A DNA stretch of 64,000 nt from the NCBI GenBank assembly GCA_019119165.1, contig DWXO01000077.1, positions 1 to 64,000 of the forward strand, given 5' to 3'. Positions 8,798-31,701 of this stretch are shown one piece after another (position 1 is the stretch's first letter; every line of letters begins with the position of its first letter). The position numbers were made by a program, and so were the translations under genes. Source of the DNA: Candidatus Flavonifractor intestinigallinarum. GTDB taxonomy: Bacteria; Bacillota; Clostridia; Oscillospirales; Oscillospiraceae. The notes below the pieces were generated by a model. That model saw nothing but the letters and a program-made list of their open reading frames with translations, did no database searches and had not been told where the DNA came from.

Positions 8798-9595
8798 ATG
8801 AGTATGTCAGCTTCGAGGATCACCGTTACCAACCAGAAGGGCGGCGTTGGAAAGACCACCACCGCGGCCGCGCTGCTGGCCAGCCTGAGTCATCGGGGCG
8901 CCCGTGTGCTGGGCGTGGACCTGGACCCTCAGGGCAGCCTGGGCTTCAGCCTGGGTTTGGATATTGAGCGGTGCATGACCATATACGACGTGTTCCGGGG
9001 CGCGGTGGAACCGGAACAGGCCATTGCCCATACGGAGACCTGCGACCTGCTGCCCTCCAACATCCTGCTGGCGGGGGCTGAACTGGAGTTCAACCGGCCG
9101 GGACGGGAGTTTCTGCTGAAAACGGCCCTGTCCAAAGTGGAGCAGGATTACGACTACATCATTGTGGATACGCCTCCGGCGCTCAACCTGCTGACAGTCA
9201 ACGCCTATGTGGCGTCGGACCAGCTGATCATTCCCATGGCGCCGGAGGTGCTCAGTCTGCTGGGCGTGTCTCAGATCAAGGAGACCATTGAGAGCGTGCG
9301 GGATTACTATAACCCCCATCTGGAGGTGCTGGGTATCCTGCTCAACCGGTATAATGCCCGTTTCAACCTGAACCGGGAGGTGCTGGAGCTGGCGGGGCAG
9401 ATTGCCCAGCAGCTGAATACCGTGGTCTTTTCCGCCAAGATCCGCACCAGCGTCTCGGCGGCGGAGGCCCCGGCCCACGGCATGAGCGTGGTGGATTACG
9501 CGCCGTCGTCCAATCCCACCCGGGACTTTGAGCGGCTGTGCGACGAGGTGGCGGGAGCCCGCTTTCCTCGGGTTGAGAGAGGAGGTCGGCGCTGA
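8798..9595 (+). CDS. ParA/Soj-family ATPase
   Basis: Deviant Walker [56 protein letters not shown]. The 3' end overlaps the next gene. Confidence 0.92.
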
Positions 9596-10515
9596 TGGCG
9601 GGAAGAAAAGGCAGCCGCAGCAGTAAGACGGACCATGTGCTCAACCTGCTTTCGGGCGGGGCGCGGGAGGAGGAAGCCCGCCCCGCGGCGGAGGAACAGC
9701 CTGCCGGTACGCCCCCCGTAGAGCCGGAGACTGCTCCGGTGGAGCACCGGGAGGGGGAGCGGATTGTCGCCCCTATTTTGCAGGTGGCCCGCACCAACAA
9801 TGAGGCTCTGTCCAGGACCATTCGGGACGCGCTGACCCAGTCGCTGGAGGAGGAGATTGCTCAGAGCGAGGAGGAGCACCCTACGCCTGCGCCCGAACCG
9901 GAACCGGCCCCTGAGCCCGCGCCGGAACCCCAGCCCGCGCCCGTCTCGGGGGGCGGAAAGATGAGCCAGGAGGAGATCGAGAAGCTGCTCCACAGCATGG
10001 GTACGCCGGAGCCTGAACCGGAACCGGAACCTGCGCCGGAACCCCAGCCCGCGCCTGCCTCGGGGGGCGGAAAGATGAGCCAGGAGGAGATCGAGAAGCT
10101 GCTTCAGGGCATGGCCGCGCCAGAGCCTGAGCCTGAATCCAAGCCAGAACCTGTGCCCGAGCCTCAGCCAGAGCCTGAACTTGCGCCAGAGCCGGCTTCT
10201 GCGTTTGAAACCCCCTTTGCACCCCGGGAGACCCGCCTGCCCGACGGGGCGGTGTGCGTCAACGTGATGGAGGTGCTGGTGGACGAGCGCATCGAGCGGT
10301 ATGTCCGTATGTTCGGCCTGTGCGACTGTGCCCGCTGCCTGGCCGACGTTCGGGCGCTGGCGCTGACCCGGCTGCCGCCCAAGTATGTGGTGCTGGCGGA
10401 GAGCGTGGCCACCCCCATGCTCAGCCTGTACCGGGCCAAATTTGAATCCCAGGTGATCGCTCAGGTGGTCCAGGCCTGCAAGACTGTGATGGAAGCGCCC
10501 CGGCACATTCTTTAA
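9595..10515 (+). CDS. Pro/Glu-rich protein with two FliM-type docking peptides and a C-terminal ComFB-like domain
   Basis: [18 protein letters not shown] and [19 protein letters not shown]-terminus [45 protein letters not shown] resembles ComFB family (NVME..V...L..Y..C.C..C..DV.A.ALN.LPP.YV). Confidence 0.7.
9921..10121 (+). repeat. Two in-frame 114-nt tandem repeats encoding [25 protein letters not shown]
   Basis: ATGAGCCAGGAGGAGATCGAGAAGCTG occurs at 9961 and 10075, exactly 114 nt (38 aa) apart, with conserved flanks. Confidence 0.9.
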
Positions 10516-10749: not shown

Positions 10750-11949
10750 ATGCGTATCCAGCACAACATTATGGCGATGAACGCCTACCGCAACTACTCC
10801 AACAACACCAGCGCTCTGTCCAAGAACCTGGAGAAGCTGTCTTCCGGCTACAAGATCAACCGCGCCGGTGACGACGCCGCCGGTCTGGCCATTTCCGAGA
10901 AGATGCGTGCCCAGATCACCGGTCTGGAGACCGCTCAGAAGAACGCCAAGGACGGCATCTCCCTGGTGCAGACCGCTGAGGGCGCTCTGACCGAGGTCCA
11001 CGATATGCTCAACCGCATGGTGGAGCTGGCCGACCAGTCCGCCAACGGTACCTACGACAACGAGACCGACCGCGCCAACCTGCAGAAGGAGTTTGAGCAG
11101 CTGACCAAGGAAATCGACCGTATCGCCGACAGCTCCAACTTCAACGGCATCAACCTGCTGGACGGCTCCATGGAGGATGGTAGCACGCTGGACACCTATA
11201 CCACGAAGATTGCTGCTTCTTCTGCTGGCAAGTCGACAATTGACGTGTCCGTCAACATGGGCGGCAATGTGAAGGTGCAGTTTGCTGTCTCCTCCACCTC
11301 GAGTCAGTATAATAAGGCCGCTGCTTCCAGCGGCGGTACGCTGACCGTTACCCTTCAGAAGGGCAAGTCCTACACTGCGGCAGAGATTCAGGACATCCTG
11401 CGGAAGGCAACTGGTGCAGCTTCCAAGACTAAGGCTCAGGCCTCTGTGGAGCTGGCAAAGAAGGCCACTGTGACCGGTGCCGGTGTTACCGCAAAGTCTT
11501 CGGATAACGCTTTGGCCGCTACTACTGGAACAGCAATTCAGGATAAGGGTAGTGCACTGACCCTGCAAATCGGCGACACCAGCGACGATTACAACCAGCT
11601 TGAGGTGAGCATCGAGGATATGCACGCCGCCAAGCTGGGCCTGACCGACATCAAGATCAGCGATCAGTCTAGTGCCAAGGCGGCTGTGGACACCATCAAG
11701 GCAGCCATCAACACCGTGTCCTCCGTCCGTGGTACTCTGGGCGCCACCCAGAACCGTCTGGATCACACCATCAACAACCTGTCCGTGATGACTGAGAACA
11801 TCCAGGACGCCGAGTCCACCATCCGCGACACCGACGTGGCCGACGAGATGATGGCCTACACCAAGAACAACATCCTGGTGCAGTCCGCTCAGGCCATGCT
11901 GGCCCAGGCCAACCAGGTGCCTCAGGGCGTGCTGCAGCTGCTGCAGTAA
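10750..11949 (+). CDS. fliC: Flagellin
   Basis: [56 protein letters not shown] and C-terminal [43 protein letters not shown]. Start corrected from ORF start 10621; SD AAGGAGG. Confidence 0.97.
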
Positions 11950-11982
11950 GCACTGGGACGTCACGCTACCCAATACCAAAGA

Positions 11983-12017
11983 GGGGGCTGGGGTTCAACG
12001 CCCAGCCCCCTTTTTTT
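11983..12017 (+). terminator. Rho-independent terminator after flagellin
   Basis: GGGGGCTGGG-gttcaacg-CCCAGCCCCC perfect 10-bp stem followed by TTTTTTT. Confidence 0.92.
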
Positions 12018-12035: not shown

Positions 12036-14018
12036 ATGCGAACCATTGAAGTTGCCAGAAGATTGGCGGAGCTGGGCCGGAAGGAAGATGCCCAGAAGGG
12101 ATATTATCTGGCCCTGCAAAAAATGAAAACAGAGGAGCTGGAGCCTAAGGAGCAGCTGGAGGCCGCCAGCTACCTGTTTTTTTCCAAATGGGATCACAGG
12201 CTCCCCTTCACTATCTTTGTGTCCCTCTACAACCAGGGCTATTTTCAGGACGAACTGATGAACCTGATGCTTCAGGCTTTTTATCTGCCCAATGTGCAGA
12301 AGCAGCAGAAGCAATATGCCCGCAACTGCCGCGCCCTGGCGCGCTATTCCTACTTTTTCCGGGACAGCTTCCCCAACTTTGATGAGCTGCCCATCCTCTT
12401 TTTCCCCTTTGACGATCAGGGCTTTGTTCCCTTTCTTCAGGCGGAAAACCGCTTCGGCGACTATGTGAACTTTGACGATCCGGTCATTGACCGCTACTTC
12501 TTTAAAGATTTGGAAAATCCCATCCTGGCTAAGGATGTTTACTCCCAGTACCAGCTGGAATATTTGAATGACAATGTGCGTAAAAGCGAGTGGGTGGGCC
12601 GGGAGAACCACATCTACCTCCACTATACCGATTGGAATCAGTTTTGCGGCTATCTCCCCTGCCTGGATTTTGCCCCGCTGCTGAAGGAGAAGAAGTTGGT
12701 CTTCCTGCTAGAAGAGGAGATCAGCCAGTATCCCATTGACTTCAAGGAACGCTTTGGCATCGACTACAGCCAGTACCCGGTCAAGCCCATCGGCGTCCGG
12801 GAAGTGAACCGACTGATCTGGCACACCCAGCTGTCGGCTCACAACGGTGGTGACTTTTTTAATGAAATCTTCTACGACCATCCCAACCTTCTGGTTTATG
12901 AGTCTATTATATTTGACAGCCTGAAAGAGCAGATAAAAAGTTGTAGGCAGGATTGGAAAACGGTCAATAATATTAATCCTTGGATCTGGAAAGAACTGTC
13001 TCGAATCCCAAATCCCACTGATAAAGATTTTTTAGTGGCGTTATTTCTTAACAGCGACGCGGTCAGCCGAGATATGCGCGGCGATTCCCGCATTGCCCCC
13101 GCTCTCTTTTTCCAGCCCCACTTCTACAATGTCTGCTGTAATATCAACCTAAACAAGACTCAGGATAAGGCGATTATCTCATCCAATCAGTATGAAGAGA
13201 TTAGTAAATCTACTATTTTTAACCAATTTAAGTACATTAAGACCTTTACCCCCATGCGCCGTATCACTACCAGCTATGGTGCTACAGTCCGCTTTATGCT
13301 CAAAGGAGTTCAGGAAAAAGAGGGGGAGAAGGTAATTTCAGATGCTTTTACTGAGCGGCTGCTTAACCGCTCTTTTATGATGGACAAGTGGGACAGGCTG
13401 TACCGGGACAGTGTACTGGTGCGGTTTGAGGATGGTAAACTGAATCCCAAGGCTACCTTCACCGCTTTGGCGGAATTCCTGGACATTCCCTATACGGAGA
13501 GCATGACCTACTGTTCAGGAAAAACCGGCCTGAATCCAGAGTCCTTGGAAGGTAACGACCTGGGCTTTGACCCCGCCGCCATCTACCGCACTTACGATGA
13601 ATATGTGGACGACGCTGACCGCTGTCTTCTGGAATACTTCCTGCGGGACGTATATGAGACCTATGGGTATGACTTCCACTACTATCACGGAGAAACTGCG
13701 GATATGGAGTGGGTGAAAGAAAAACTGGAGGGTTTCCACCATCTTGATTACTTGATCGTAGAAACATTCAAAAGTTTTCTGGATAAAAAAATTTTGGAAA
13801 ATGATACAATTATTTTTAATGGCACAGTCCATGAAAAGGAAGAGGGAAACCAGCTGATAGCGGAGCAGCAGCTGAATGATTATAAAAAGAACCGCTTAAA
13901 GGTTACAGAAATTCTGCTGAAAGGCCTGGAATTTGTGAACAAACAGGGGCAGCCGCTGCATATGATGAAGAAGCTTGAGCTGGACCCGGCGCTGCTGGAG
14001 CAGCCCCTGTACCACTGA
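12036..14018 (+). CDS. Sulfotransferase-like protein with an extended N-terminal region (putative flagellin/glycan modification)
   Basis: QLSAHNGGDFFNEIFYDHPNLLVYESIIF resembles the sulfotransferase 5' PAPS-loop region (SGTTFLNELLDSHPNI) in degenerate form; DSVLVRFEDGKLNPKATFTALAEFLDIPYTESM resembles the sulfotransferase C-terminal region. Confidence 0.55.
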   Translation: MRTIEVARRLAELGRKEDAQKGYYLALQKMKTEELEPKEQLEAASYLFFSKWDHRLPFTIFVSLYNQGYFQDELMNLMLQAFYLPNVQKQQKQYARNCRALARYSYFFRDSFPNFDELPILFFPFDDQGFVPFLQAENRFGDYVNFDDPVIDRYFFKDLENPILAKDVYSQYQLEYLNDNVRKSEWVGRENHIYLHYTDWNQFCGYLPCLDFAPLLKEKKLVFLLEEEISQYPIDFKERFGIDYSQYPVKPIGVREVNRLIWHTQLSAHNGGDFFNEIFYDHPNLLVYESIIFDSLKEQIKSCRQDWKTVNNINPWIWKELSRIPNPTDKDFLVALFLNSDAVSRDMRGDSRIAPALFFQPHFYNVCCNINLNKTQDKAIISSNQYEEISKSTIFNQFKYIKTFTPMRRITTSYGATVRFMLKGVQEKEGEKVISDAFTERLLNRSFMMDKWDRLYRDSVLVRFEDGKLNPKATFTALAEFLDIPYTESMTYCSGKTGLNPESLEGNDLGFDPAAIYRTYDEYVDDADRCLLEYFLRDVYETYGYDFHYYHGETADMEWVKEKLEGFHHLDYLIVETFKSFLDKKILENDTIIFNGTVHEKEEGNQLIAEQQLNDYKKNRLKVTEILLKGLEFVNKQGQPLHMMKKLELDPALLEQPLYH

Positions 14019-14030
14019 GGAGAGATACCC

Positions 14031-15173
14031 ATGGACAACAAAGGAACCGTTTATTTTTTTACCGGTCTGTCCGGCGCGGGCAAAACCACCATTGGCGGGC
14101 TGTTCTGCCGACGGCTGAAAGCCACAAAGCCTAACGCGGTCTATCTGGACGGTGATGAGATCCGTGTTGCGTTTGGTGAGGATGTGGGCTATACCCATGA
14201 GGAACGGCTGCGCTGGGCTGGGCGCATCTTCCGGGTGTGTAAGCTGTTGTCCGACCAGGGCATTGACGTGGTGTGCTGTTCGATTGCCATGTTTGATTCT
14301 GTGCGCCAGTGGAACCGGGAACATATCCCCAATTACAAGGAAATTTATATCCGGGTAAAAAAAGAAACCCTTATGCAGCGCAACCAAAAGGGCCTGTACA
14401 CCGCCGGGCACAATGTGGTGGGAATCGATTTGCCCTTTGACGAGCCGAAAACCCCGGATCTGGTGATCCAGAACGACGGCGACCGCACGCCGCTGGAGCT
14501 GGTGGAGGAGATTGAGCGAATCTTTTATCCCAATATTGTGGAGAACCCCATCGACAACCGGGATTATTGGAATCAGTATTATAACAATCGGATCTGTTCC
14601 ACGGAGCCGTCCCCCTTTGCCCAATATGTGTCTACTCTTGTGGAACCGGGCAAAACGTTGGTGGATCTGGGGTGCGGGAATGGGCGTGACGCGCTGTTTT
14701 TCGCAGGCCAGGGGCTGCAGGTGCTTGCCATTGATCTGTCCGGCTCAGCCATTGACCAACTGAACCAGATGCCGGTAGAAAATGCCCGTTTCCTGTGCGG
14801 GGACTTCATTGCCAGCGATGTCCACCAGCCGGAGATCTATGACTACGCCTACAGCCGCTTTACCATCCATGCGATTAATCAGCAGCAGGAGGCGCTGCTG
14901 CTCCAGACCGTGTTTCGCTCCTTGAAATGTGGTGGAAAATTCTTTATTGAAGTTCGTAGCGTAAACGATCCCCTCTATGGGAAAGGGAAGGCTGTAGAGC
15001 GCAATGCCTTTTTCTATGACAATCATTACCGGCGCTTTATTGTCCGGGATGAGCTGGTCAAATCCCTGGAAAACTATGGGTTCCGTGTAGAATATGCCAA
15101 AGAACAGACTGGATTTGCTCCCTACGGAAATGATGATCCGCCGGTCATCCGGATTGTGGCGGTCAAACCATAG
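14031..15173 (+). CDS. Adenylyl-sulfate-kinase-like domain fused to a class I SAM-dependent methyltransferase
   Basis: N-terminus: FFTGLSGAGKTTIGGLFCRRL, VYLDGDEIRVAFGEDVGYTHEERLRWAGRIFRVCKLL, QKGLYTAGHNVVGIDLPFDEPKTPDLVI (CysC-like). C-terminus: LVDLGCGNGRDALFFAGQGLQVLAIDLSGSAI (MT motif I). Confidence 0.8.
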   Translation: MDNKGTVYFFTGLSGAGKTTIGGLFCRRLKATKPNAVYLDGDEIRVAFGEDVGYTHEERLRWAGRIFRVCKLLSDQGIDVVCCSIAMFDSVRQWNREHIPNYKEIYIRVKKETLMQRNQKGLYTAGHNVVGIDLPFDEPKTPDLVIQNDGDRTPLELVEEIERIFYPNIVENPIDNRDYWNQYYNNRICSTEPSPFAQYVSTLVEPGKTLVDLGCGNGRDALFFAGQGLQVLAIDLSGSAIDQLNQMPVENARFLCGDFIASDVHQPEIYDYAYSRFTIHAINQQQEALLLQTVFRSLKCGGKFFIEVRSVNDPLYGKGKAVERNAFFYDNHYRRFIVRDELVKSLENYGFRVEYAKEQTGFAPYGNDDPPVIRIVAVKP

Positions 15174-15185
15174 GAGGCGGGATAT

Positions 15186-16004
15186 ATGCAGTTATCAGCT
15201 GATCTCCATACCCACTCCACTGCCTCAGATGGCCAGTATTCTCCCGCGCAGGTGGTGGAATTGGCCCGGAAGGCCGGCGTCCAATGCCTGGCTCTTACCG
15301 ATCATGACACCGTGGACGGCGTGGAGGAGGCGATTCAGGCCGGCGCACAGATGGGCGTCCATGTGCTGCGGGGTGTGGAATTGGGCGCCAGAGAGGATCG
15401 TCACTTGCACATCCTGGGGCTGGGCCTGGGGGCGGGCTGTACGACTATGGAAACGCTGTGCCGCAAACTCAAGGACAGCCGGGCTGAACGAAAATACCGG
15501 ATTGTGGATTTTCTCGAGGAAAAAGGAATCCATATCGACCTTCAGGAGGTGGAGGAGCTGGCGCAGGGCGGCTTGGTGGCCCGGCCTCACTTCGCTCAGG
15601 TTATGGTGCGTCACGGCTATGTTTCCTCCATGCGGGAAGCCTTTGACCGCTACCTGGACACCGACGAATATCAGCGCATTGAGCGGTTCAAGGCTGATGC
15701 CGCCGATTGTATTGCCGCAATCCGCCAATCCGGCGGCAGAGCTGTGCTGGCCCACCCCTGCCAGCTGAATTTGCCCGAGGAGAAGCTGGAGCGTCTTGTA
15801 AAGGAACTCAAGGATGCCGGTCTGGAGGGGCTGGAGTGCTTTTACCCTCAGCATACGCCTGAAATGGTAACGGCATACCGGAATCTGGCGATAAAATATG
15901 ACCTGTATGTTACAGCCGGCAGCGATTTTCACGGAGAACGGGTGCATCCCGACAGGCCGTTTATGCCTACGCCATTGGAATTGGCATGGCTGTTGGATCG
16001 ATAA
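15186..16004 (+). CDS. PHP-domain phosphoesterase, YciV/TrpH-like (possible 3',5'-nucleoside bisphosphate / pAp phosphatase)
   Basis: ADLHTHSTASDGQYSPAQVVELARKAGVQCLALTDHDTVDG, GVELGAREDRHLHILGL, RPHFAQVMVRHG, AVLAHPCQL, TAGSDFHGE: PHP metal-ligand set. Confidence 0.85.
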   Translation: MQLSADLHTHSTASDGQYSPAQVVELARKAGVQCLALTDHDTVDGVEEAIQAGAQMGVHVLRGVELGAREDRHLHILGLGLGAGCTTMETLCRKLKDSRAERKYRIVDFLEEKGIHIDLQEVEELAQGGLVARPHFAQVMVRHGYVSSMREAFDRYLDTDEYQRIERFKADAADCIAAIRQSGGRAVLAHPCQLNLPEEKLERLVKELKDAGLEGLECFYPQHTPEMVTAYRNLAIKYDLYVTAGSDFHGERVHPDRPFMPTPLELAWLLDR

Positions 16005-16020
16005 GGAATAAACAAAAGAT

Positions 16021-16062
16021 ATCCCCGATTTTATGTTCAATAGCATAAAATCGGGGATGTTT
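16021..16062. terminator. Bidirectional terminator between convergent PHP gene and cheB
   Basis: ATCCCCGATTTTATG-ttcaatag-CATAAAATCGGGGAT perfect 15-bp stem, T-rich on both sides. Confidence 0.92.
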
Positions 16063-16069
16063 TTTGCTT

Positions 16070-22492: not shown

Positions 22493-23064
22493 CCTACAAA
22501 TACTTGATGTTTGACAGCCGGGGAAATCTGGTGGCCCACGCCACCTCTGTCTACGCGCCCCGGGGCAAAGAGTGGAAAATGGTCATTGACGATGACGATG
22601 TGGAAGAGGCGGCGAAACACTCCTACCTCAGCCTGGTGGGCGATTCCGACGCGGTGCCCGCCATGGAGGGACGAATCCTCCGCTGGGAGGGTAAGACCGT
22701 GGTGCTGGAGCCGGTACGGCCTCTGGAGCAGAAGGACCGTCAAAATCTGCGGGTCCCCGCCCGCTTTGTCAGCTACCTCTATTCCGTTTCCGGGACCTGG
22801 AAAGGCAGGGTCCCCATCGTCAGCCACGATCTGAGCAGCGGAGGGCTGGCCTTTTTCTGCCCCCGCTCCCTGCAGGTGGGCGAACAGGTGCAGGTGGTGA
22901 TCCCCGTCACCGCCAACCCGCTGCTGCTGGATATGGAGATCCTGCGCTGCCGCTCCGGTCCGGGCCAGGACCTGCTGTACGCGGGCAAGTTCCTGTCCAT
23001 GCTGCGGGAAGCAGAGAGCATGGTGCGGGAAGCGGTGTTCCATCTGCAGCGGCAAAAGAATTGA
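22489..23064 (+). CDS. PilZ-domain (c-di-GMP binding) protein
   Basis: RQNLRVPARFVS (RxxxR) and SHDLSSGGLAFF (D/NxSxxG). Confidence 0.85.
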   Translation: MTYKYLMFDSRGNLVAHATSVYAPRGKEWKMVIDDDDVEEAAKHSYLSLVGDSDAVPAMEGRILRWEGKTVVLEPVRPLEQKDRQNLRVPARFVSYLYSVSGTWKGRVPIVSHDLSSGGLAFFCPRSLQVGEQVQVVIPVTANPLLLDMEILRCRSGPGQDLLYAGKFLSMLREAESMVREAVFHLQRQKN

Positions 23065-23108
23065 ACCCGGCGGGCCGCGCCGGGAGAGTGTTTCCAAGGA
23101 AAGGACGA

Positions 23109-26100
23109 ATGGATATGACAGGCTGGAGAGAATGGACGAGACGGCTCACAGGCCGGGTCCGGGCCGGGCTTTTGGCGCTGGTCCTGGTTGTGGTCCTGGC
23201 CGGAACGGCGGGCGCCGCCTCCTATATGCAGCCCTACCTGGACAAGGTGGTGGAATGGGGGGTAATGCGGGGAGATATCGCCGGAAACCTGAATGAGAAC
23301 AATCCCATCACCCGGGCCGAATTCTGCACGATGATCAACCGTGCCTTCGGCTATTCCCGCATGGGCTCCACGCCCTTCCGGGATGTGAAGAACAACGCCT
23401 GGTATGCCCAGGACGTGGCTATCGCCTACACCACGGGCTACATCAAGGGCACCTCCGCGTCCACTTTTTCTCCCGAAAGCAACATTACCCGGGAGCAGGC
23501 GGCGGTAATTCTGTCCCGCATCCTGATGCTTCCGGAGGAAGTGGGCGAGAACACCGTGTTCAGCGACAGCCGCTCCATGGCCAACTGGAGCCAGGGCTAC
23601 ATCGCCGCCGCCGCCCACTACGGGCTGGTCAACGGCTATCCCAACGGCCGCTTCGGCCCTCAGGATAACCTCACCCGTGGGCAGGCGGCCATCCTGCTGG
23701 TCAACGCCCTGGGCACCCCCATCCGGGAGGCGGGAACCTACACCCTGGGCAGCGTGTGGGGCAGCGTGACCATCACCACCTCCGGCGTGACCCTGCGGGA
23801 CACGGTGGTGGGCGGCAACCTGTACATTACCGCCGGTGTGGACCTGGGCTATGCCACCCTGGAAAACGTCACCGTTCTGGGTGACATTGTGATCAGCGGC
23901 GGCGGCACCAGCGAGGGCGGCGAGGACAGCGTGATCCTGCGCAACGTGACCGCGCCCCGTATGCTGGTGGACAATCTGGGCAATCGCTTTACCTCCGTGA
24001 AGGTGGAGGGCGACGGCCTGATCAATCAGGCCAGCGTGCGTACCAACGCCTACCTGGAGGACAACACGCCGGACGGCTGCGGCGTGGCGCGCATCGACCT
24101 GGACGGGGAGGAGGAGCTGACCCTCACCCTGGCGGGCAACATCAAGGAAGTGGTCAACTCCGCGCCCCGCACCACCCTGGAGCTGGCCAGCGGACAGGCC
24201 AAAACCATCACCGTGGATGAGGCCGCGGTGGACTCCACCCTGTCCATTGCCGCCGGGGCCCAGGTGGAGCAGGTGAACCTGGATACCGGCATTGAGGTGA
24301 CCGGAGACGGCGACATCGCCAACCTTACCGTCAACGCCGCGGGCAGCACGGTGTCCATGCTGCCGGACCAGATCATCATTCGTCCCGGCATCACGGCCAA
24401 TATCGACGGGGAGGTCATGGACAGCGCGGCGGCGGCGGAGTCCTCCGCCGACCCCCGGCTCTACGCAGGCTATCCCCAGGTCCGGGATCTGGCGCCCACC
24501 AGCGCCACCGTGGCCTTCAGCGCCAACAAGCGGGGCACCATCTACTGGGCGGTGACCGCCGTGACCGACGGCTCCCTGACGGCGGAGGAGATCATCAATC
24601 CCTCCACCTACAGCCCCAAGATCGTGAAGAGCGGCACCGTGTCCCTGAGCGGCTCGGGGAAGGAGGGGACGGCCAAGATCAGCGGCCTGACCTCCGACGG
24701 CGCATACTACCTCTCCACCGTCTTTGTGGATGCCCGGGATGAGCGCAGCCCCCTGAAGGTCATTTCCTTCACCACACCCGACAACACCAAGCCGGCCTTT
24801 GCCTCCGGCTACCCCTATATGTCCAAGGTGACCAACATCTACGGCCAGACCACCGTCATGACCACCAAGACCTGCCGGCTGTACTACGCCGTGCTGGAGA
24901 AGGGCGCCAGCGCACCCACCGCCAGCGACTTCAAGGCCAACGCCGTCACCGGCAATCTGGGCTTTGGCTCCATGGACGTGGTGAAAAACACCCCCTACAG
25001 CTTCCGGGTCAACTCGGTGCCCCTGGATGAGCTGGAGAGCTACGACCTGTACCTGTGGCTCACCGATGTGGACGGGGCCCAGAGCTCGGCGGTGAAAAAG
25101 CTCACCTTTACCACCGTGGACGGTACGCCGCCCCAGTTCCGCACCGAGCCCACCGTCAACAACGTGAAGGAGACCTCTGTGGGCCTGTATGCCAACCTCA
25201 ATGAGGCGGGCACCCTCTACTGGGTCATTGTGGAGGAGGGCACCACCTATCCCAAGCCCCTGGCCGGGCAGAGCGGCGAGGTGGACCTGTCCAGCGACGC
25301 TGCCAAGCTTCAGGTCATGGCGGGTATGAACGCCCTGAAGAGCGGCAAGGTCTCCATGTCGGCCGACAAGGATGTGAGCTTCAACATCAGCGGCCTGCAG
25401 GAAGAGACGGCCTATGACCTCTATTATGTGGCCCAGGACAAGGCGGGCAACTACTCCGACACGGTGGGCAAGCTCACCATCCATACGCTGGACAACACCG
25501 TCCCCACCGTGACCCAGGAGTTCACCAAGTATAACGGCACGGCCTCCGACACCCCCCTGCCGGAGAGCGATGTGCGCCTGGTGTTCAGCGAGGGGATTCA
25601 GACGGTGGGCAACTATACCAAGCTGACCGACCTCTACCAGAAGGTGATCGACGCCCAGACGGAGAGCGCCAAGGCGGAGGCCCGGACCGAGCTGGCCAAC
25701 GCCCTGAGCAACGCCATCTACTTCTATCAGGTCCCTGCCGGCAGCCAGCCGGTCAAGGTGGAGGGGGCGGATGACGCCGACAAGAAGGACGACAGCTGGG
25801 TCATTGACTACCGCTACGCCGAGGTCACCATGGAGGAGGGAAAGGCCGTTATTACCTTCCCCAACGGCAGCGGCATCAATCTCAAGAGCGGCGCCACCTA
25901 TTATTTTGAGATCCAGGCCAACACGCTGGCCGACACCTCCTCCGCGGCCAATGTGATGGGGCGCACCCAGCTGCCCCGCTTTACCACGGTGTTTGCCGTG
26001 GTGAACCTGTCCGCCCTCAACGAGAACAGCATCCAGGTGGGCGGCAGCGCCGTGACCACCGACCTGAGCTGGCGGCTCACCCCGGTATCTACCGACAAGG

Positions 26101-28010
26101 TGGACGACTCCATCGACTGGGATATGCTCATCTGGTCGGACACCAGCGTGGAGTTCAATCTCTATGCCCGGGAGGTGGGCGCCGGCAGCGACGGCGCCTG
26201 GAAGCTGCTGGGCAAGAGCAAGATCGACGTGCCCGACACGGCCCAGGGCTATCTGGGTATCAGCCTGACCCGGAATTTCCTTGAGGCCGGAACCAACAAC
26301 CCGGACTTTGAGGCCCTGAACCAGCTGGACCCCAACACCTCTTATGAATACGCCATCTCCTTTACCAAGGTGGCCGGGCTGTCCGATCCCGACACCTGGA
26401 GCCAGCGGGTCAACATGAAGGTCCATGTGGTGGCCGGCAGCAACAACGATCTGGGTACGATGTCCGCCAACGTCACGGAGAGCAACTGGGCGGAGATGAC
26501 CAAGGAGGACCTGACCAACATCGGCCAGCCGGAGACCCTTACCCTGCGCAAGCAGTTCACCGATCAGCAGGCCCCTGTTTTCAACGGCGACTATCCCCTC
26601 TTCGACGCGGGAGACTCGGCGGTGGAGATGTCCCTGATGCTGGACCGGCCCGGAACCGTCTACTATGTCATCGCCCCGCTGGGCTATGTGGGTACCAGCG
26701 ACGGAGAAAATTCGTACGGCGACAACGCCACGGGCATCAAAAACTGGGAGAAGCTTCCCGAGAGCGGCAAGTACGACGCCATCGATGATGAGGACAATCC
26801 CAATCCCCCCATTCTTGTGGCGCCCGATTACCTCAACATTGTCAACGCCAGCAGCAACTACCGGAACGAAAAGATCAAGTACGGCACGGTGACCTGCGGC
26901 TCCAGTGTGGAGACCAAGCTGGTGGAGGGGCTGGACAAACAGACCCGGTACATCGCCTACTTTGTCCTCCAGGGCAACGCCCAGACCTACTCCCGGGTGT
27001 TGGCCTACCGCTTTGAGACCACCGATGTGAGCAAGCCGGTCATTACCCTGACCCAGTACAGCCCGTCGGTCAACTTTGAGACCGACTCCTCCGCCGAGCT
27101 GACTTACGCGCTCATCGCCACCAACGAGCTGCCCAGCAGCCTGCGCAGCAACAATGGCTTTGACAAGCTGGTGGACAGCAGCAAGAGCGAGCTCTGGGCG
27201 CAGTTGACCGGAGCCAACGGCGTCTATGAGGATGAGAACCGCACCGTCATTTGGGCCCTGTCCACCCCCTACGGCTCGGGCGGGTACACCGTTTTCGACG
27301 AGTTTGCCGGCAGCGCGGTGCGCAAGACCGTGTCTGAGCTGGTCAGCGGCAGCAACCCCATGGGCGCGGCCATCGCCGCCCAGGGAAAGAAATCCCTGAC
27401 CCAGGCCAACCAGTATTTCCAGACCCAGGACTTTACCAACAACATGACCGGCGGCACCATCTACTACTGCCTGGCCACCGCCGTCAGCCCGCTGGGCTCG
27501 GAGACTTCCTTTGCCGCGGTGGGCGGCGTGCAGATCCCCGACAAGACCCCGCCCGTGCTGGAAAATGTGTCCACCACCATTACCGGCGGCAGCGGCGGCG
27601 CCTATCCCACTTACAGCGGCACGGTGACCTTTACCTTTGACGAGCCGGTCTATCAGCTGGTGGAGCTGGCCGGCGGCGTGGAGCAGACCCCCATGCAGGT
27701 GTGGCAGACCAACAGCACCCTGACCCCGGAGGACGCGGAAAAAGCGGTGCGCCTCATCGATATCCTGGGCGGCAGTATTCCCAAGTGGAACCTGAACTAC
27801 ACCAACGAGGTGAAGAAGGCCTCCACCACGCTGACGCTGACCTTCCAGAACGTGTCGCTGGGGGATACCATCACCTTCTTCTCCGACAGCTTTATCTGTG
27901 ACGCCAGCAGTAACAGTACCCGTCAGAATCTCACCTTCCGGCTGGAGGAAACCGCCATCGGCAACATTACCGCCGGTTCCCGCGTCCAGTTTGTCCAGGT
28001 GAGCAACTGA
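23109..28010 (+). CDS. Large SLH-domain surface protein with Fn3-like repeats
   Basis: Hydrophobic signal-like segment (LLALVLVVVLAGTAGAAS); SLH motifs YLDKVVEWGVMRGD..NPITRAEFCTMINRAF, FRDVKNNAWYAQDVAIAYTTGYIKG, NLTRGQAAILLVNAL; Fn3-like strands. Start at 23109. Confidence 0.88.
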   Translation: MDMTGWREWTRRLTGRVRAGLLALVLVVVLAGTAGAASYMQPYLDKVVEWGVMRGDIAGNLNENNPITRAEFCTMINRAFGYSRMGSTPFRDVKNNAWYAQDVAIAYTTGYIKGTSASTFSPESNITREQAAVILSRILMLPEEVGENTVFSDSRSMANWSQGYIAAAAHYGLVNGYPNGRFGPQDNLTRGQAAILLVNALGTPIREAGTYTLGSVWGSVTITTSGVTLRDTVVGGNLYITAGVDLGYATLENVTVLGDIVISGGGTSEGGEDSVILRNVTAPRMLVDNLGNRFTSVKVEGDGLINQASVRTNAYLEDNTPDGCGVARIDLDGEEELTLTLAGNIKEVVNSAPRTTLELASGQAKTITVDEAAVDSTLSIAAGAQVEQVNLDTGIEVTGDGDIANLTVNAAGSTVSMLPDQIIIRPGITANIDGEVMDSAAAAESSADPRLYAGYPQVRDLAPTSATVAFSANKRGTIYWAVTAVTDGSLTAEEIINPSTYSPKIVKSGTVSLSGSGKEGTAKISGLTSDGAYYLSTVFVDARDERSPLKVISFTTPDNTKPAFASGYPYMSKVTNIYGQTTVMTTKTCRLYYAVLEKGASAPTASDFKANAVTGNLGFGSMDVVKNTPYSFRVNSVPLDELESYDLYLWLTDVDGAQSSAVKKLTFTTVDGTPPQFRTEPTVNNVKETSVGLYANLNEAGTLYWVIVEEGTTYPKPLAGQSGEVDLSSDAAKLQVMAGMNALKSGKVSMSADKDVSFNISGLQEETAYDLYYVAQDKAGNYSDTVGKLTIHTLDNTVPTVTQEFTKYNGTASDTPLPESDVRLVFSEGIQTVGNYTKLTDLYQKVIDAQTESAKAEARTELANALSNAIYFYQVPAGSQPVKVEGADDADKKDDSWVIDYRYAEVTMEEGKAVITFPNGSGINLKSGATYYFEIQANTLADTSSAANVMGRTQLPRFTTVFAVVNLSALNENSIQVGGSAVTTDLSWRLTPVSTDKVDDSIDWDMLIWSDTSVEFNLYAREVGAGSDGAWKLLGKSKIDVPDTAQGYLGISLTRNFLEAGTNNPDFEALNQLDPNTSYEYAISFTKVAGLSDPDTWSQRVNMKVHVVAGSNNDLGTMSANVTESNWAEMTKEDLTNIGQPETLTLRKQFTDQQAPVFNGDYPLFDAGDSAVEMSLMLDRPGTVYYVIAPLGYVGTSDGENSYGDNATGIKNWEKLPESGKYDAIDDEDNPNPPILVAPDYLNIVNASSNYRNEKIKYGTVTCGSSVETKLVEGLDKQTRYIAYFVLQGNAQTYSRVLAYRFETTDVSKPVITLTQYSPSVNFETDSSAELTYALIATNELPSSLRSNNGFDKLVDSSKSELWAQLTGANGVYEDENRTVIWALSTPYGSGGYTVFDEFAGSAVRKTVSELVSGSNPMGAAIAAQGKKSLTQANQYFQTQDFTNNMTGGTIYYCLATAVSPLGSETSFAAVGGVQIPDKTPPVLENVSTTITGGSGGAYPTYSGTVTFTFDEPVYQLVELAGGVEQTPMQVWQTNSTLTPEDAEKAVRLIDILGGSIPKWNLNYTNEVKKASTTLTLTFQNVSLGDTITFFSDSFICDASSNSTRQNLTFRLEETAIGNITAGSRVQFVQVSN

Positions 28011-28095
28011 CGGACCATATCCCGGAATCGTCCCTGCAGGGGCGGGCAGCGCCTGCCCGCCCTTGCGTTTGTTCCTGCAAAAGGAGGAATTTTCC

Positions 28096-31000
28096 ATGAA
28101 ACACACCGCGGGCCGCTGGCTGGCCCTTTTGCTGAGCTGGACTCTGCTGCTGGGGCTTTCGCCCACGGCCTTGGCCGCCGGAGCGGAGGAGGAAGGGCCT
28201 GCTCTCACGGGAGTGATGCTGAATCACTACACCCTGTCCATGGCTGTGGGCCAGAGCGACACCCTCAGCGCCACCCTCCAGATGTCCGACGGCTCCACGC
28301 TGGAGACCCTTCCCACGGGCTATACCGCCGTTTGGACGGTGGCCAATGACCGTGGGGATGAGGTGCGGGTGACCGCCGACGGGGAAAACAACCTTGCCGC
28401 CACGGTGGAAGCCCTGGCGCTGGCCGACACCAACGAGCCGGTCAAGGCCGTGTCGGTCACGATTACGGTGACCCCGGCGGGGGCGGCCCAGGGGCAGCAG
28501 GCATCCTGTCAGGTAACGGTCTCCGCCGCGGAGCCGCCTGGCGTGACGGTCAGCCCCAAGACCATGGAGCTCTCGCCCATTGAGACGGCCGCCAACCATA
28601 CGGGGCGGCTCACCGCTACCGTTACGCCCGCCTCGGCCCCTCAGACCGTGGCCTGGACCAGCGGGGATGGCACGGTAGCCACCGTCAGCGATACCGGCGT
28701 GGTCACGGCCGTAGGCGCCGGCGAGACAAAGATCACCGCCACCGCCAACGGCTACCAGGACACCTGTACCGTGCAGGTCCAGGGCGTGGCGCTGGACACC
28801 TCGGAGGTGACGAAGCCCCTGCGTGTGGGGGGCAATGCCACCCTGGATGCCACAATCTACGGCTCCTCCCTTCAGAACAAAACCCTTTCCTGGAGCAGCA
28901 GTGATTCCACCGTGGTAAAGGTGGATAAGGGCTACCTCTACGCCATGGAGGAAGGGGAGGCCATCATTACCGTCCAGATCAACGGCACCACCTATGTGGA
29001 TAGCGTGACCGTGAAAGTGGAGCAGGCCACCGCCGACGTGATCCGGGCCTCGGCGCAGACCGGGGACCCGCTGGAGTTTTCTGAGCTGGAGTCCGACCTT
29101 CAGAGCCAAAGCCGCCAGGTGCTGGACAAGAGCCTGAGCTACGTCAGCGGCCTGTCGGTGGACACGGCCCAGGGCACCCTCTATTACCGCTACGCCTCGG
29201 ATGGGGATACCGGCTCCGGCGTGGGCACCGGAGAGCGCTACTATGTCTCCCCGGGCAACGGCCAGATGTCCCTTTCCGACCTGACCTTTGTGCCCAAGTC
29301 CGATTTTGAGGGCACAGCGGTGATCCGGTACACCGGCTATGCCTCGGGCAGCGAGTTTTTCCAGGGCACCATCCAGGTGTCGGTGGAGATGGAACAGGAT
29401 GTGACCTACTCCACCTCGGCGGACAAGGCGGTGCAATTCAGCGCCGCCGACTTTGCCCAGGTGTGCCGCAGCCGGACGGGGCGGGACCTGAGCTACATCA
29501 TCTTCACCCTGCCCGACAGCAGCCGCGGTACCCTGTATTACAACTACCTCTCCGCCCAGAATCCAGGCACCGCCGTGGCGGCCGACGGACAGTACAAGTA
29601 CACGGGCAGCCCCAACCTGGGGGATGTGTATTTCCTGCCCGCTCAGGGCACCTCCGGCGAGGTGGTGTTCCCCTATACGGCCTGGGACGTGAACGGCACC
29701 TCCTACCGGGGACGGGTCACCGTCCAGGTTTCGGCGGCGGTGGCCTCGGGGGATCTTACCTACTCCGTGGCGCGCAACGGACGGGTCACCTTTGACGACA
29801 GTGACTTCAACACCCTGTCCCGGAACCTCACCGGCTATTCGCTGGAGCGGGTGCGCTTCACCCTGCCCGATTCCGACAAGGGCACGCTGTACTACGGCTA
29901 TACCTCCTCCGGCTCCTACACCGCTGAGGTGTCGGAAACCAGAGACTATTACCGCTCCTCCTACCCCTATCTGGACAACATCACCTTTGTGGCCGGAACG
30001 GATTACACCGGCACGGTGTCCATTCCCTTTACGGCGTGGGATGTGGAGGGAAACCGCTTTTACGGCGAGGTGGGCATCTCGGTGGCTGCCCGAGGCAGCG
30101 GCACCATCCGCTATACCGTGCTCCAGGGGGGAACGGTGAAGCTGGATGACGGGGACTTCAACGATCTGTGCCAGGAGCTGACGGGGGGCAGCCTGCGGTA
30201 TGTGCGCTTTACCCTTCCCGCGTCCTCCCGGGGTACGCTGTACTACAAGTACACCTCGTCGGGAAATTATGAAAGCAAGGTGTCTGAGAGCCGCAGCTAC
30301 TACCGCAGCTCCTCTCCGTACCTGGACAACATCACCTTTGTTCCCGCCTCCTCCTATACCGGCACGGTGTCCATTCCCTTCACCGGTTGGAATACCTCCA
30401 GTGAAACCTTCGCCGGCACACTGGAGATCACCGTGGACGGCACGCCCGATCCGCTGGTCTACCAGGTGACGGGGGGAGACGCGCTGACCTTTGACGAGGA
30501 GGCGTTTGACGACTACTGCCGTCTGGCCACCGGAGAGGGCCTGCGGTATGTGCGCTTTACCCTGCCCACCTCCACCCAAGGTACGCTCTACTATAACTAC
30601 AGAACCAGCACCGGAAAATACGACAGCAAGGTGACCTCCTCCCGCAACTACTACCTCAGCTCCTCCCCCTATCTGGAGAAGGTGAGCTTTGTGCCCGGGG
30701 ATGATTACGCCGGGACCTTCGACCTGTCCTTTACCGGCTGGAGTACCGGTGGTCGGAAGTTCACCGGCACGGTCACCATTACCGTGACCCAGGGACAGGC
30801 GGGGAACATCACCTATTCCACCGCCTACCAGCCGGTGACACTCCAGGCGGAGGACTTTGTCCAGGCCTGCGCCCAGCGGGGACGGGGCTCTCTGGTGTCG
30901 GTGAAGTTCACCGGGGCGGACAGCCTCTACGGCGGATATCTCTATGACAGCTACGGCGGGATTCACTCGGCCAGCAGCCAGGTGCGTACCGGCACGGTGT

Positions 31001-31701
31001 ACTATCCCTCCAGCTCCCCCCGGATCTCGGAAGTCTCCTTTGTGCCCCGGGTGGGCTTTCAGGGGACGGTGGTGCTGACCTACACCGGGACCGATTCCAG
31101 GGGAGGCACCTATCAGGGCACGGTGTCCATCCAGGTCACCCCCAACACCACGTCCAGCCACTTCTCCGACCTGAGCGGCTACGGCTGGGCCGCGGCGGCG
31201 GTGGATTTCCTCTACGAAAATCAGGTGGTCAGCGGCACCGGGAACGGGCGCTATGCGCCGGGACAGCCCATCACCAGAGCGGAATTCCTGGTGATGCTTG
31301 ACCGGGCGTTCGCATTCCCGGCCACGGAGAGCAAGTCCTTCCCCGATGTTCCGGACACCGCCTACTACGCCCAGTCGGTCCGGCGGGGCTACGCCCTTGG
31401 GGTGGTTTCGGGGTATCCGGACGGTACCTTCCGGCCCAATGAGGTCATCACCCGTGAGTCGGCGGCCACCATGCTGTACCGGGCCATGCAGGCCTCGGGA
31501 TGGAGCCTGAGCAGCGCGGGCGAAAGCGCCATGTACGGCTATTCCGACTGGCGGAGCGTATCGGCCTACGCGGTAACGCCAATGGCCACGCTGGTTCAGA
31601 ACGGGCTGCTGACCGGCGACGGGCAGGGCAAACTGCTCCCCACCAAGACCATGACACGGGCCGAGATGGCGGTTTTGCTGGCCAGAGCACTGACGTTTTA
31701 A
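28096..31701 (+). CDS. Large secreted protein with Ig-like (Big_2) domain, six tandem ~115-aa repeats and C-terminal SLH domains
   Basis: Signal peptide MKHTAGRWLALLLSWTLLLGLSPTALAA; VSPKTMELSPI...VAWTSGDGTVATVSDTGVVTAVGAGETKITATANGY; C-terminal AVDFLYENQVVSGTGNGRYAPGQPITRAEFLVML and two further SLH units. Confidence 0.9.
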   Translation: MKHTAGRWLALLLSWTLLLGLSPTALAAGAEEEGPALTGVMLNHYTLSMAVGQSDTLSATLQMSDGSTLETLPTGYTAVWTVANDRGDEVRVTADGENNLAATVEALALADTNEPVKAVSVTITVTPAGAAQGQQASCQVTVSAAEPPGVTVSPKTMELSPIETAANHTGRLTATVTPASAPQTVAWTSGDGTVATVSDTGVVTAVGAGETKITATANGYQDTCTVQVQGVALDTSEVTKPLRVGGNATLDATIYGSSLQNKTLSWSSSDSTVVKVDKGYLYAMEEGEAIITVQINGTTYVDSVTVKVEQATADVIRASAQTGDPLEFSELESDLQSQSRQVLDKSLSYVSGLSVDTAQGTLYYRYASDGDTGSGVGTGERYYVSPGNGQMSLSDLTFVPKSDFEGTAVIRYTGYASGSEFFQGTIQVSVEMEQDVTYSTSADKAVQFSAADFAQVCRSRTGRDLSYIIFTLPDSSRGTLYYNYLSAQNPGTAVAADGQYKYTGSPNLGDVYFLPAQGTSGEVVFPYTAWDVNGTSYRGRVTVQVSAAVASGDLTYSVARNGRVTFDDSDFNTLSRNLTGYSLERVRFTLPDSDKGTLYYGYTSSGSYTAEVSETRDYYRSSYPYLDNITFVAGTDYTGTVSIPFTAWDVEGNRFYGEVGISVAARGSGTIRYTVLQGGTVKLDDGDFNDLCQELTGGSLRYVRFTLPASSRGTLYYKYTSSGNYESKVSESRSYYRSSSPYLDNITFVPASSYTGTVSIPFTGWNTSSETFAGTLEITVDGTPDPLVYQVTGGDALTFDEEAFDDYCRLATGEGLRYVRFTLPTSTQGTLYYNYRTSTGKYDSKVTSSRNYYLSSSPYLEKVSFVPGDDYAGTFDLSFTGWSTGGRKFTGTVTITVTQGQAGNITYSTAYQPVTLQAEDFVQACAQRGRGSLVSVKFTGADSLYGGYLYDSYGGIHSASSQVRTGTVYYPSSSPRISEVSFVPRVGFQGTVVLTYTGTDSRGGTYQGTVSIQVTPNTTSSHFSDLSGYGWAAAAVDFLYENQVVSGTGNGRYAPGQPITRAEFLVMLDRAFAFPATESKSFPDVPDTAYYAQSVRRGYALGVVSGYPDGTFRPNEVITRESAATMLYRAMQASGWSLSSAGESAMYGYSDWRSVSAYAVTPMATLVQNGLLTGDGQGKLLPTKTMTRAEMAVLLARALTF
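29040..31140 (+). repeat. Six tandem coding repeats of roughly 115 aa (RFTLPxSxxGTLYYxYxS...YYxSSxPYLxxITFVPxxxYxGTVxIPFTxW)
   Basis: Diverged repeat units seen by eye in the protein; closest pair is units 3 and 4 (GTLYYGYTSSGSYTAEVSETRDYYRSSYPYLDNITFV vs GTLYYKYTSSGNYESKVSESRSYYRSSSPYLDNITFV). Confidence 0.85.

Follow-up and report, generated by a model that had tools for sequence, protein, structure and literature searches.

Directly downstream of a flagellin gene of Candidatus Flavonifractor intestinigallinarum lies what we read, with moderate confidence, as a modular flagellin-modification cassette that follows the nucleotide logic of sulfation but in most or all carriers does not use sulfate. 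As the best explanation of the data, gene 1 (a divergent transferase), an APS-kinase-like enzyme and a PHP phosphoesterase make up the core common to such cassettes, and the attached group varies with the accessory genes. Gene content, conservation, the absence of APS-forming enzymes and the swapping of modules were computed in this paper.

Gene order and conservation

In the window, the whole stretch of 64,000 nucleotides that was analysed, flagellin is followed by three co-directional genes spaced 12 nt apart (Table 1). The sequence-only reading had placed terminators on both sides of these genes, and the gene coordinates and hairpin folds agree with that layout. A hairpin with a T-run recurs in 16 of the 20 other flagellin-ST gaps examined, one of the 16 being weak. 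The hairpin in the window's own gap probably allows partial read-through, by which much flagellin and little enzyme would be made.

Table 1. Features of the flagellin locus and the adjoining cassette (positions in the window)
Feature	Position	Strand	Description
Flagellin	10750..11949	+	Flagellin_N 3e-45, Flagellin_C 2e-27; probable target of modification
Terminator-like hairpin + T7, flagellin/gene 1 gap	11982..12017	+	Fold -31.3 kcal/mol, z -3.7
Gene 1 ('ST')	12036..14018	+	660 aa; predicted group transferase
Gene 2 (CysC-MT)	14031..15173	+	380 aa; APS_kinase domain fused to methyltransferase
Gene 2, N-terminal APS-kinase-like P-loop kinase domain	14031..14540	+	PF01583 7e-28; motifs GLSGAGKTT, LDGD, QKGLY
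Gene 2, C-terminal class I SAM methyltransferase domain, TehB/TPMT-like	14541..15173	+	Methyltransf_23 2.9e-13
Gene 3, PHP phosphoesterase	15186..16004	+	272 aa; PHP (PF02811) 1e-12
Terminator-like hairpin closing the cassette, ahead of convergent cheB	16016..16063	+	Hairpin seen in sequence

The order flagellin-ST-CysC(-MT)-PHP was found in about 25 Oscillospiraceae-type loci, and the conservation of this arrangement is well above chance. In relatives for which that DNA is present, flagellin almost always stands immediately 5' of gene 1, and genomes with an ST gene are enriched for flagellin (9/12 vs 53/289, p 5e-5). The same MT-type cassette as in the window is carried by F. plautii ATCC 29863. 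Two parts of the sequence-only reading are thereby supported: the three genes belong together, and they travel with flagellin. An exception is L042 of genome G245, an ST-CysC-IspD locus with no flagellin beside it; in L026, CysC-MT is placed behind a DegT-type aminotransferase gene. These two loci are what would be expected if the cassette adjoined flagellin yet modified another surface glycan, but such a role is very improbable, since almost every other locus with sufficient sequence has flagellin immediately 5' of the cassette and ST genomes are enriched for flagellin.

Kinase and PHP protein

The kinase domain of gene 2 retains the P-loop of the APS_kinase family. It passes its best subfamily model, PRK05541, which is named adenylyl-sulfate kinase (158 > 127), and fails the APS-kinase equivalog TIGR00455 (apsK), with 101.3 bits against 138.7. 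The CysC-MT proteins form one clade in the kinase tree (support 92/84). Across the phylum, Sat or CysDN often lies beside canonical APS kinases but never beside the cassette kinase. The predicted structure of CysC-MT (pLDDT 68.4) was too poor for a fold search. Adenine-binding residues were dropped as a marker of kinase specificity, because the second Phe is missing as well from solved structures annotated as APS kinases. The domain is proposed to be a nucleotide 3'-kinase.

Gene 3 scores best, though below the curated cut-off in each case, with the NCBIfam models for 3',5'-nucleoside bisphosphate phosphatase (NF041577, 1.9e-58) and RNase RNM (NF047791, 3.1e-58); against the equivalog NF041577, 197.8 bits were obtained for a cut-off of 400. 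Its relatives in the PDB are 9etk, 2yb1 and 7ug9, and the metal-site motifs DLHTH, TDHDT, E65, H75, HP and GSDFH are invariant. The PHP proteins of cassettes of all accessory types group as one cassette-specific clade. PHP genes also adjoin cysC in true sulfate operons (L146, L150 and L154); the neighbours of canonical cysC include Sat or CysDN, with PHP alongside in three. Gene 3 is a candidate for hydrolysing a 3',5'-nucleoside bisphosphate by-product. A cycle of maker, user and by-product remover had been proposed for the three genes, and it fits both the cassette-specific PHP clade and the PHP genes beside cysC in sulfate operons. Overall, this 3'-phosphonucleotide logic is well supported.

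A divergent predicted transferase

The N-terminus of gene 1 is helical and TPR-like, and its C-terminal half is highly divergent and sulfotransferase-like. The match to Sulfotransfer_3 (E 0.022, 15.4 bits) lies below the gathering score of 27; 6 of 15 family members match this model, with a best E of 0.0014. In hhalign, the gene 1 profile aligned to sulfotransferase with P 0.001, vs about 0.3 for unrelated controls, at a probability of just 21%. In a by-eye alignment, the R/K-S-G-T 5'-phosphosulfate (RSGTT PAPS) loop was not recognised, and its place is occupied by a conserved HNGGDFFNEI...HPN. A profile search against PDB sequences gave no match, and the AlphaFold model (mean pLDDT 59.6, <50 across much of the core) was too poor for a fold search. 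A search of 390 further genomes of the class found no gene 1 relatives, so the alignment could not be improved. Gene 1 may belong to the sulfotransferase fold, but the scores are low and the predicted structure is poor. Of the sulfotransferase-like enzyme in the sequence-only reading, the faint similarity stands, while the Sulfotransfer_3 cut-off and the PAPS loop speak against it.

Availability of sulfate

ATP sulfurylase (Sat) was found in none of the 27 cassette genomes, and in the same search 5 of the 14 control genomes were positive. The sequence-only reading had itself listed a genome lacking this enzyme as evidence against its scheme. CysD, with CysN, occurs in one of the 27 (G204). Many surveyed genomes are incomplete MAGs, and in the window's own genome, a MAG of 85.6% completeness, neither Sat nor CysDN was identified. 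Of the 27 carriers, 26 thus have no identified APS-forming enzyme, the genome of F. plautii ATCC 29863 among them. PF01507 matches in 8 of 9 carriers were left out of this count: those of L051-L054 and L056 fall short of the CysD models, that of L059 matches no CysD model, those of G288 and G068 were set aside on reading their sequences, and those of G315 are short (4.9e-9 at best).

Probably, then, sulfate cannot feed the cassette in almost all carriers, and sulfation is probably not its chemistry. The cycle had originally been cast as PAPS-dependent sulfation, in which the APS kinase makes PAPS, gene 1 moves sulfate, the PHP protein removes pAp and methylation falls to the methyltransferase. 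Such a scheme would suit the Pfam assignment of the kinase, the faint sulfotransferase similarity of gene 1, the best match of the PHP protein to a pAp phosphatase model together with the place of such proteins beside cysC in sulfate operons, and the CysDN of G204; but it is improbable in view of the missing APS makers, the unmet apsK and sulfotransferase cut-offs, the unrecognised PAPS loop and the genes for CTP-dependent phosphonate and polyol (CDP-alcohol) activation in sister cassettes.

Sister cassettes and module swapping

The kinase of sister cassettes stands without a methyltransferase domain, and after it come cytidylyltransferases together with genes of 2-aminoethylphosphonate (AEP) or CDP-polyol type. 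An IspD-type cytidylyltransferase comes after the kinase in L037, L042 and L045 and after PHP in L036 and L038, and SDR, DUF2284 and NTP_transferase follow the kinase in L035 and L046. L041 has, after the kinase, PEP mutase (411>320), phosphonopyruvate decarboxylase (481>312) and AEP transaminase (424>361), all above NCBIfam cut-offs and accompanied by NTP_transferase and CTP_transf domains. Judged from these genes, the groups attached by sister cassettes would best be explained as 2-aminoethylphosphonate, polyol phosphate, or not assignable. The window cassette has neither cytidylyltransferase nor phosphonate genes, and the comparison suggests that its fused methyltransferase domain stands where the sisters have separate donor-making genes. 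The transferase tree shows the MT-type cassettes to be polyphyletic (AU p 0.00017), whereas CysC-MT is one clade, which indicates that donor modules were swapped onto different transferase backbones.

Proposed mechanism

The enzymatic steps, the nucleotide, the methyl phosphate and flagellin as acceptor are what we infer from this pattern. The activated group would be built as a nucleotide conjugate, of CMP or CDP type in sister cassettes by way of the cytidylyltransferase. The APS-kinase-like enzyme would phosphorylate the 3'-OH of the conjugate, as in the 3'-phospho-CDP-phosphoramidate of Campylobacter. Gene 1 is proposed to use this donor and move a phosphoryl or phosphonyl group onto flagellin or its glycan, after which the PHP protein would cleave the released 3',5'-bisphosphate. 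For the window cassette, where a fused methyltransferase replaces the accessory genes, the group is therefore most simply, and perhaps, methyl phosphate; since this cassette has no cytidylyltransferase, the nucleotide of the MT type can only be guessed, as can methyl phosphate.

The fusion of both domains in one polypeptide and the weak sulfotransferase assignment of gene 1 would also suit a WbdD-like outcome, in which kinase and methyltransferase cap a flagellin glycan or side chain with methyl phosphate by direct action, with gene 1 as a glycosyl- or other transferase and no nucleotide donor. This is unlikely: it leaves unexplained the cassette-specific PHP protein of nucleoside-bisphosphate-phosphatase type and the cytidylyltransferases at the methyltransferase position in sisters, and kinases of APS-kinase type are not known to act on anything but nucleotides. 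Phosphate with a methyl group had been the fallback of the sequence-only reading, and it is closer to the evidence than sulfate. It is equally doubtful that 3'-phosphonucleotide chemistry transfers phosphate or another group first and that methylation follows on flagellin, after gene 1. The missing APS makers, sister modules and PHP clade accommodate that order as well as they do the preferred one, and the C. jejuni end product is also a methylated phosphoramidate, but the methyltransferase is fused to the kinase rather than the transferase, which would favour action on the donor.

Beyond the window, the preferred mechanism may tentatively be extended, at somewhat less than even confidence, to a general phosphorus counterpart of sulfation, with swappable flagellin-linked cassettes, 3'-phospho-CMP/CDP conjugates (AEP, polyol phosphate, methyl phosphate) as donors, one sulfotransferase-like family and a dedicated PHP protein clearing the bisphosphate. 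Counting against the preferred mechanism are the name of the best kinase model, still adenylyl-sulfate kinase, the CysDN of G204 and L042 without flagellin.

Comparison with known systems

The closest parallel is the O-methyl phosphoramidate (MeOPN) pathway of C. jejuni. Its cytidine diphosphoramidate kinase Cj1415, annotated CysC, is APS-kinase-like and 3'-phosphorylates a cytidine-diphospho conjugate, and a methyl-bearing phosphorus group is then transferred; the kinases are likened by description. Unlike the cassettes, this pathway targets capsule and has no known flagellin link or PHP gene. Its glutamine kinase, P-Gln cytidylyltransferase and amidase are missing from the window cassette, and inspection by eye showed neither the glutamine kinase nor the amidase in the cassettes. 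In C. jejuni, 3'-phospho-CDP-phosphoramidate has been reported as an intermediate (PMC6429109).

PAPS-dependent sulfation (CysC, sulfotransferase, pAp phosphatase) shares the three-part logic, a homologous kinase and PHP adjoining cysC, and differs in the APS supply, PAPS loop and partner genes described above. Phosphonyl tailoring (Pnt: PEP mutase, phosphonopyruvate decarboxylase, AEP transaminase, PntC) is matched by the complete AEP module and nucleotidyltransferases of L041, along with a CTP_transf-PEP-mutase fusion of a kind covered by a published survey (PMC6697681), but not by the window cassette. The survey describes nucleotidyl activation as predominant for such phosphonates, and its main text has no mention of flagellin, of a kinase or of a sulfotransferase-like enzyme (PMC6697681).

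Among the listed titles and abstracts, nothing relevant was found that linked flagellin to sulfotransferase and phosphonate, to adenylylsulfate kinase or to methyl phosphate, or that dealt with glycosylation of Flavonifractor flagellin. The type A flagellin glycan of C. difficile, a phosphate-linked N-methyl-threonine encoded beside flagellin, likewise decorates a clostridial flagellin with a methylated group linked through phosphorus, as the window cassette would. Its enzymes are different, and to our knowledge include no APS-kinase-like, PHP or sulfotransferase-like proteins. WbdD of E. coli O8/O9, which makes methyl phosphate caps, also joins kinase and methyltransferase on one chain; its kinase, however, is of the unrelated protein-kinase type and acts directly on the polysaccharide end.

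Biological meaning

If correct, the proposed mechanism would explain 'adenylylsulfate kinase' genes beside flagellin in gut bacteria with no recognisable sulfate activation, and would give a function to a transferase family that lacks a confident family match. It would also imply that 3'-phosphonucleotide donors can carry groups besides sulfate. The host may detect the flagellin of Flavonifractor and other commensals, so that its decoration would bear on motility, phage adsorption and immune sensing.

Arrangement and conservation of the cassette

The gene calls confirmed the positions of the three genes, their 12-nt spacing and their place behind flagellin, as described in the sequence-only reading.

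Table. Flagellin and the cassette genes in the window
Feature	Position	Strand	Description
Flagellin	10750-11949	+	Directly 5' of gene 1
Gene 1	12036-14018	+	Faintly sulfotransferase-like
Gene 2	14031-15173	+	APS-kinase-type P-loop kinase fused to class I methyltransferase (CysC-MT)
Gene 3	15186-16004	+	PHP phosphoesterase

The window belongs to a 2.29-Mb MAG (85.6% complete), with Flavonifractor, Pseudoflavonifractor, Lawsonibacter and Agathobaculum-type bins as named relatives. Relatives of gene 1 were detected in 12 of 301 genomes of the family, plus one short match at 30%; a further 390 genomes sampled from the class yielded none. Flagellin lies directly 5' of gene 1 at nearly all loci with enough DNA and is enriched in gene 1 genomes (9/12 vs 53/289, p 5e-5), which upholds the proposed link to flagellin. 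The cassette is real, conserved and flagellin-linked.

Between flagellin and gene 1 stands a strong hairpin followed by a T-run (-31.3 kcal/mol, z -3.7), and a second one closes the 3' end of the cassette. Of 20 other gaps inspected between flagellin and gene 1, 16 likewise contain a hairpin and T-run, weak in one case, so transcripts from the flagellin promoter probably read through into the cassette at a low level.

Several variations and neighbors were also observed. A gene 1-CysC-IspD cassette (L042:12230-15308, genome G245) has an altered gene 1 N-terminus and stands without flagellin 5'. At L026:174-2837 a DegT/DnrJ-type aminotransferase gene replaces gene 1 ahead of CysC-MT, and neither flagellin nor PHP was found around it within the stretch read. 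Genome G285 (L039, L043, L045, L046) carries several flagellin-gene 1 cassettes with differing accessory genes, some broken by fragmentation of gene 1 or by partial loss of the kinase P-loop region; this set is possibly an antigenic repertoire. In the window, a ParA-like ATPase followed by a ComFB-domain protein (8798-10515) lies just 5' of flagellin, an arrangement conserved in L022, and two very large secreted S-layer-homology-domain proteins, one with Big_2, occupy 23061-31701 within the flagellar-chemotaxis region.

The three proteins and the sulfation test

Gene 1 is only faintly sulfotransferase-like. Its Sulfotransfer_3 match (E 0.022, 15.4 bits) is below the cut-off of 27, and the best E among its relatives is 0.0014. 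Profile comparison of residues 250-560 to sulfotransferases of the class gave P 0.001 and a probability of only 21% (unrelated controls, P ~0.3), and a by-eye alignment places a conserved HNGGDFFNEI...HPN where sulfotransferases have RSGTT...HP. The AlphaFold model failed across much of the core. Gene 2 combines a kinase domain (PF01583, 7e-28) and a class I methyltransferase domain (3e-13); the kinase exceeds the cut-off of the broad PRK05541 model (158 > 127) and does not reach the curated apsK equivalog (101 < 138.7).

The best NCBIfam models for gene 3, 3',5'-nucleoside bisphosphate phosphatase and RNase RNM, are both under cut-off, and its metal-site motifs are invariant across 12 relatives. 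Across 121 sampled genomes, PHP proteins with at least 53% identity occur in 4, all with gene 1 (p 6e-7), and in 2 of these the PHP gene sits apart from the kinase; the top PHP elsewhere in the sample has 39% identity. All 19 cassette rows form a single PHP clade (SH-aLRT 100), whatever the accessory type. In Pseudoflavonifractor capillosus An827, an insertion of ~2.6 kb splits the PHP gene (L021:7693-11147).

The sequence-only reading proposed a PAPS cycle in which the kinase makes PAPS, gene 1 sulfates flagellin or its glycan and PHP clears pAp, and it called for a search for ATP sulfurylase (Sat). Among 27 cassette genomes none has Sat (PF01747), which the same search found in 5 of 14 control genomes. 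PF01507 had no match in 18 of the 27; among the 9 with matches, a recognised CysD with adjoining CysN, the other route to APS, is present in G204 only, and a direct CysD search of 10 carriers agrees. By contrast, genes for canonical APS kinases from the phylum, with 32-40% identity, frequently adjoin Sat (verified in L146, L147, L151 and L152, judged by eye in L149) or CysD/CysN (verified in L142 and L148, partly by eye in L150 and L153).

A PHP gene directly adjoins cysC at L146:5898-6746, L150:5482-6297 and L154:4651-5499, which supports PHP as a remover of 3',5'-bisphosphate; at L146 and L150, Sat or a CysN-type gene is also close by. Therefore, the logic of maker, user and by-product remover stands, and sulfate as the transferred group is most likely wrong. 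The PHP genes next to cysC may encode a pAp phosphatase that generally accompanies bacterial sulfate activation in Bacillota. In a glycan-type cluster (L145:2749-9158), a cysC-like gene is accompanied by genes for a large methyltransferase-like protein and for another protein whose HFFKNAGTT motif is, by eye, reminiscent of sulfotransferases.

Sister cassettes and the proposed cycle

Sister cassettes have a single-domain kinase and other genes in place of the methyltransferase. After the kinase, L037, L042 and L045 have an IspD-family cytidylyltransferase; in L036 and L038 one comes after PHP and is joined by a ribulose-phosphate 3-epimerase-family protein. These IspD-family proteins score under the cut-off for IspD as well as that for ribitol-phosphate cytidylyltransferase, so they point to no particular polyol. 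SDR, DUF2284 and NTP_transferase genes follow the kinase in L035 and L046. L041 encodes an NTP_transferase and three enzymes of 2-aminoethylphosphonate (AEP) synthesis that exceed their cut-offs: AEP transaminase (424 > 361), phosphonopyruvate decarboxylase (481 > 312) and PEP mutase (411 > 320), the last carrying a fused CTP_transf domain. L047 and L049 have PEP-mutase-type genes and a radical-SAM-like gene, and L047 additionally a decarboxylase and PHP.

PntC enzymes are established cytidylyl activators of AEP, and proteins that join PF01467 to PEP mutase are common (PMC6697681). For 3'-phosphorylation of a CDP conjugate by an APS-kinase-like enzyme there is a precedent in the O-methyl phosphoramidate (MeOPN) pathway of C. 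jejuni, with 3'-phospho-CDP-phosphoramidate as a named intermediate (PMC6429109); a work cited there has cytidine diphosphoramidate kinase in its title.

In the proposed cycle, an activated conjugate, NMP-X, would be formed, in the sisters by the cytidylyltransferase; the kinase would add a 3'-phosphate; the gene 1 protein would transfer X onto flagellin or its glycan; and PHP would remove the leftover bisphosphate. In the window, the fused methyltransferase perhaps methylates the terminal phosphate of a nucleoside diphosphate. Methyl phosphate is the least secure part, because the window's cassette has no cytidylyltransferase.

On the gene 1 tree, MT-type cassettes split into two separate clades, and forcing them together was rejected (AU p 0.00017); on the kinase tree CysC-MT is a single clade (92/84). 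Therefore, the donor-making module has been exchanged among transferase backbones. This suggests recognition by gene 1 of a common part, flagellin and a nucleotide moiety shared by the donors, and not of any single group. We regard the system as known chemistry, 3'-phosphonucleotide group transfer, that would here act on flagellin as a new target, and there is a moderate chance that the cassette represents a general counterpart of sulfation based on phosphorus.
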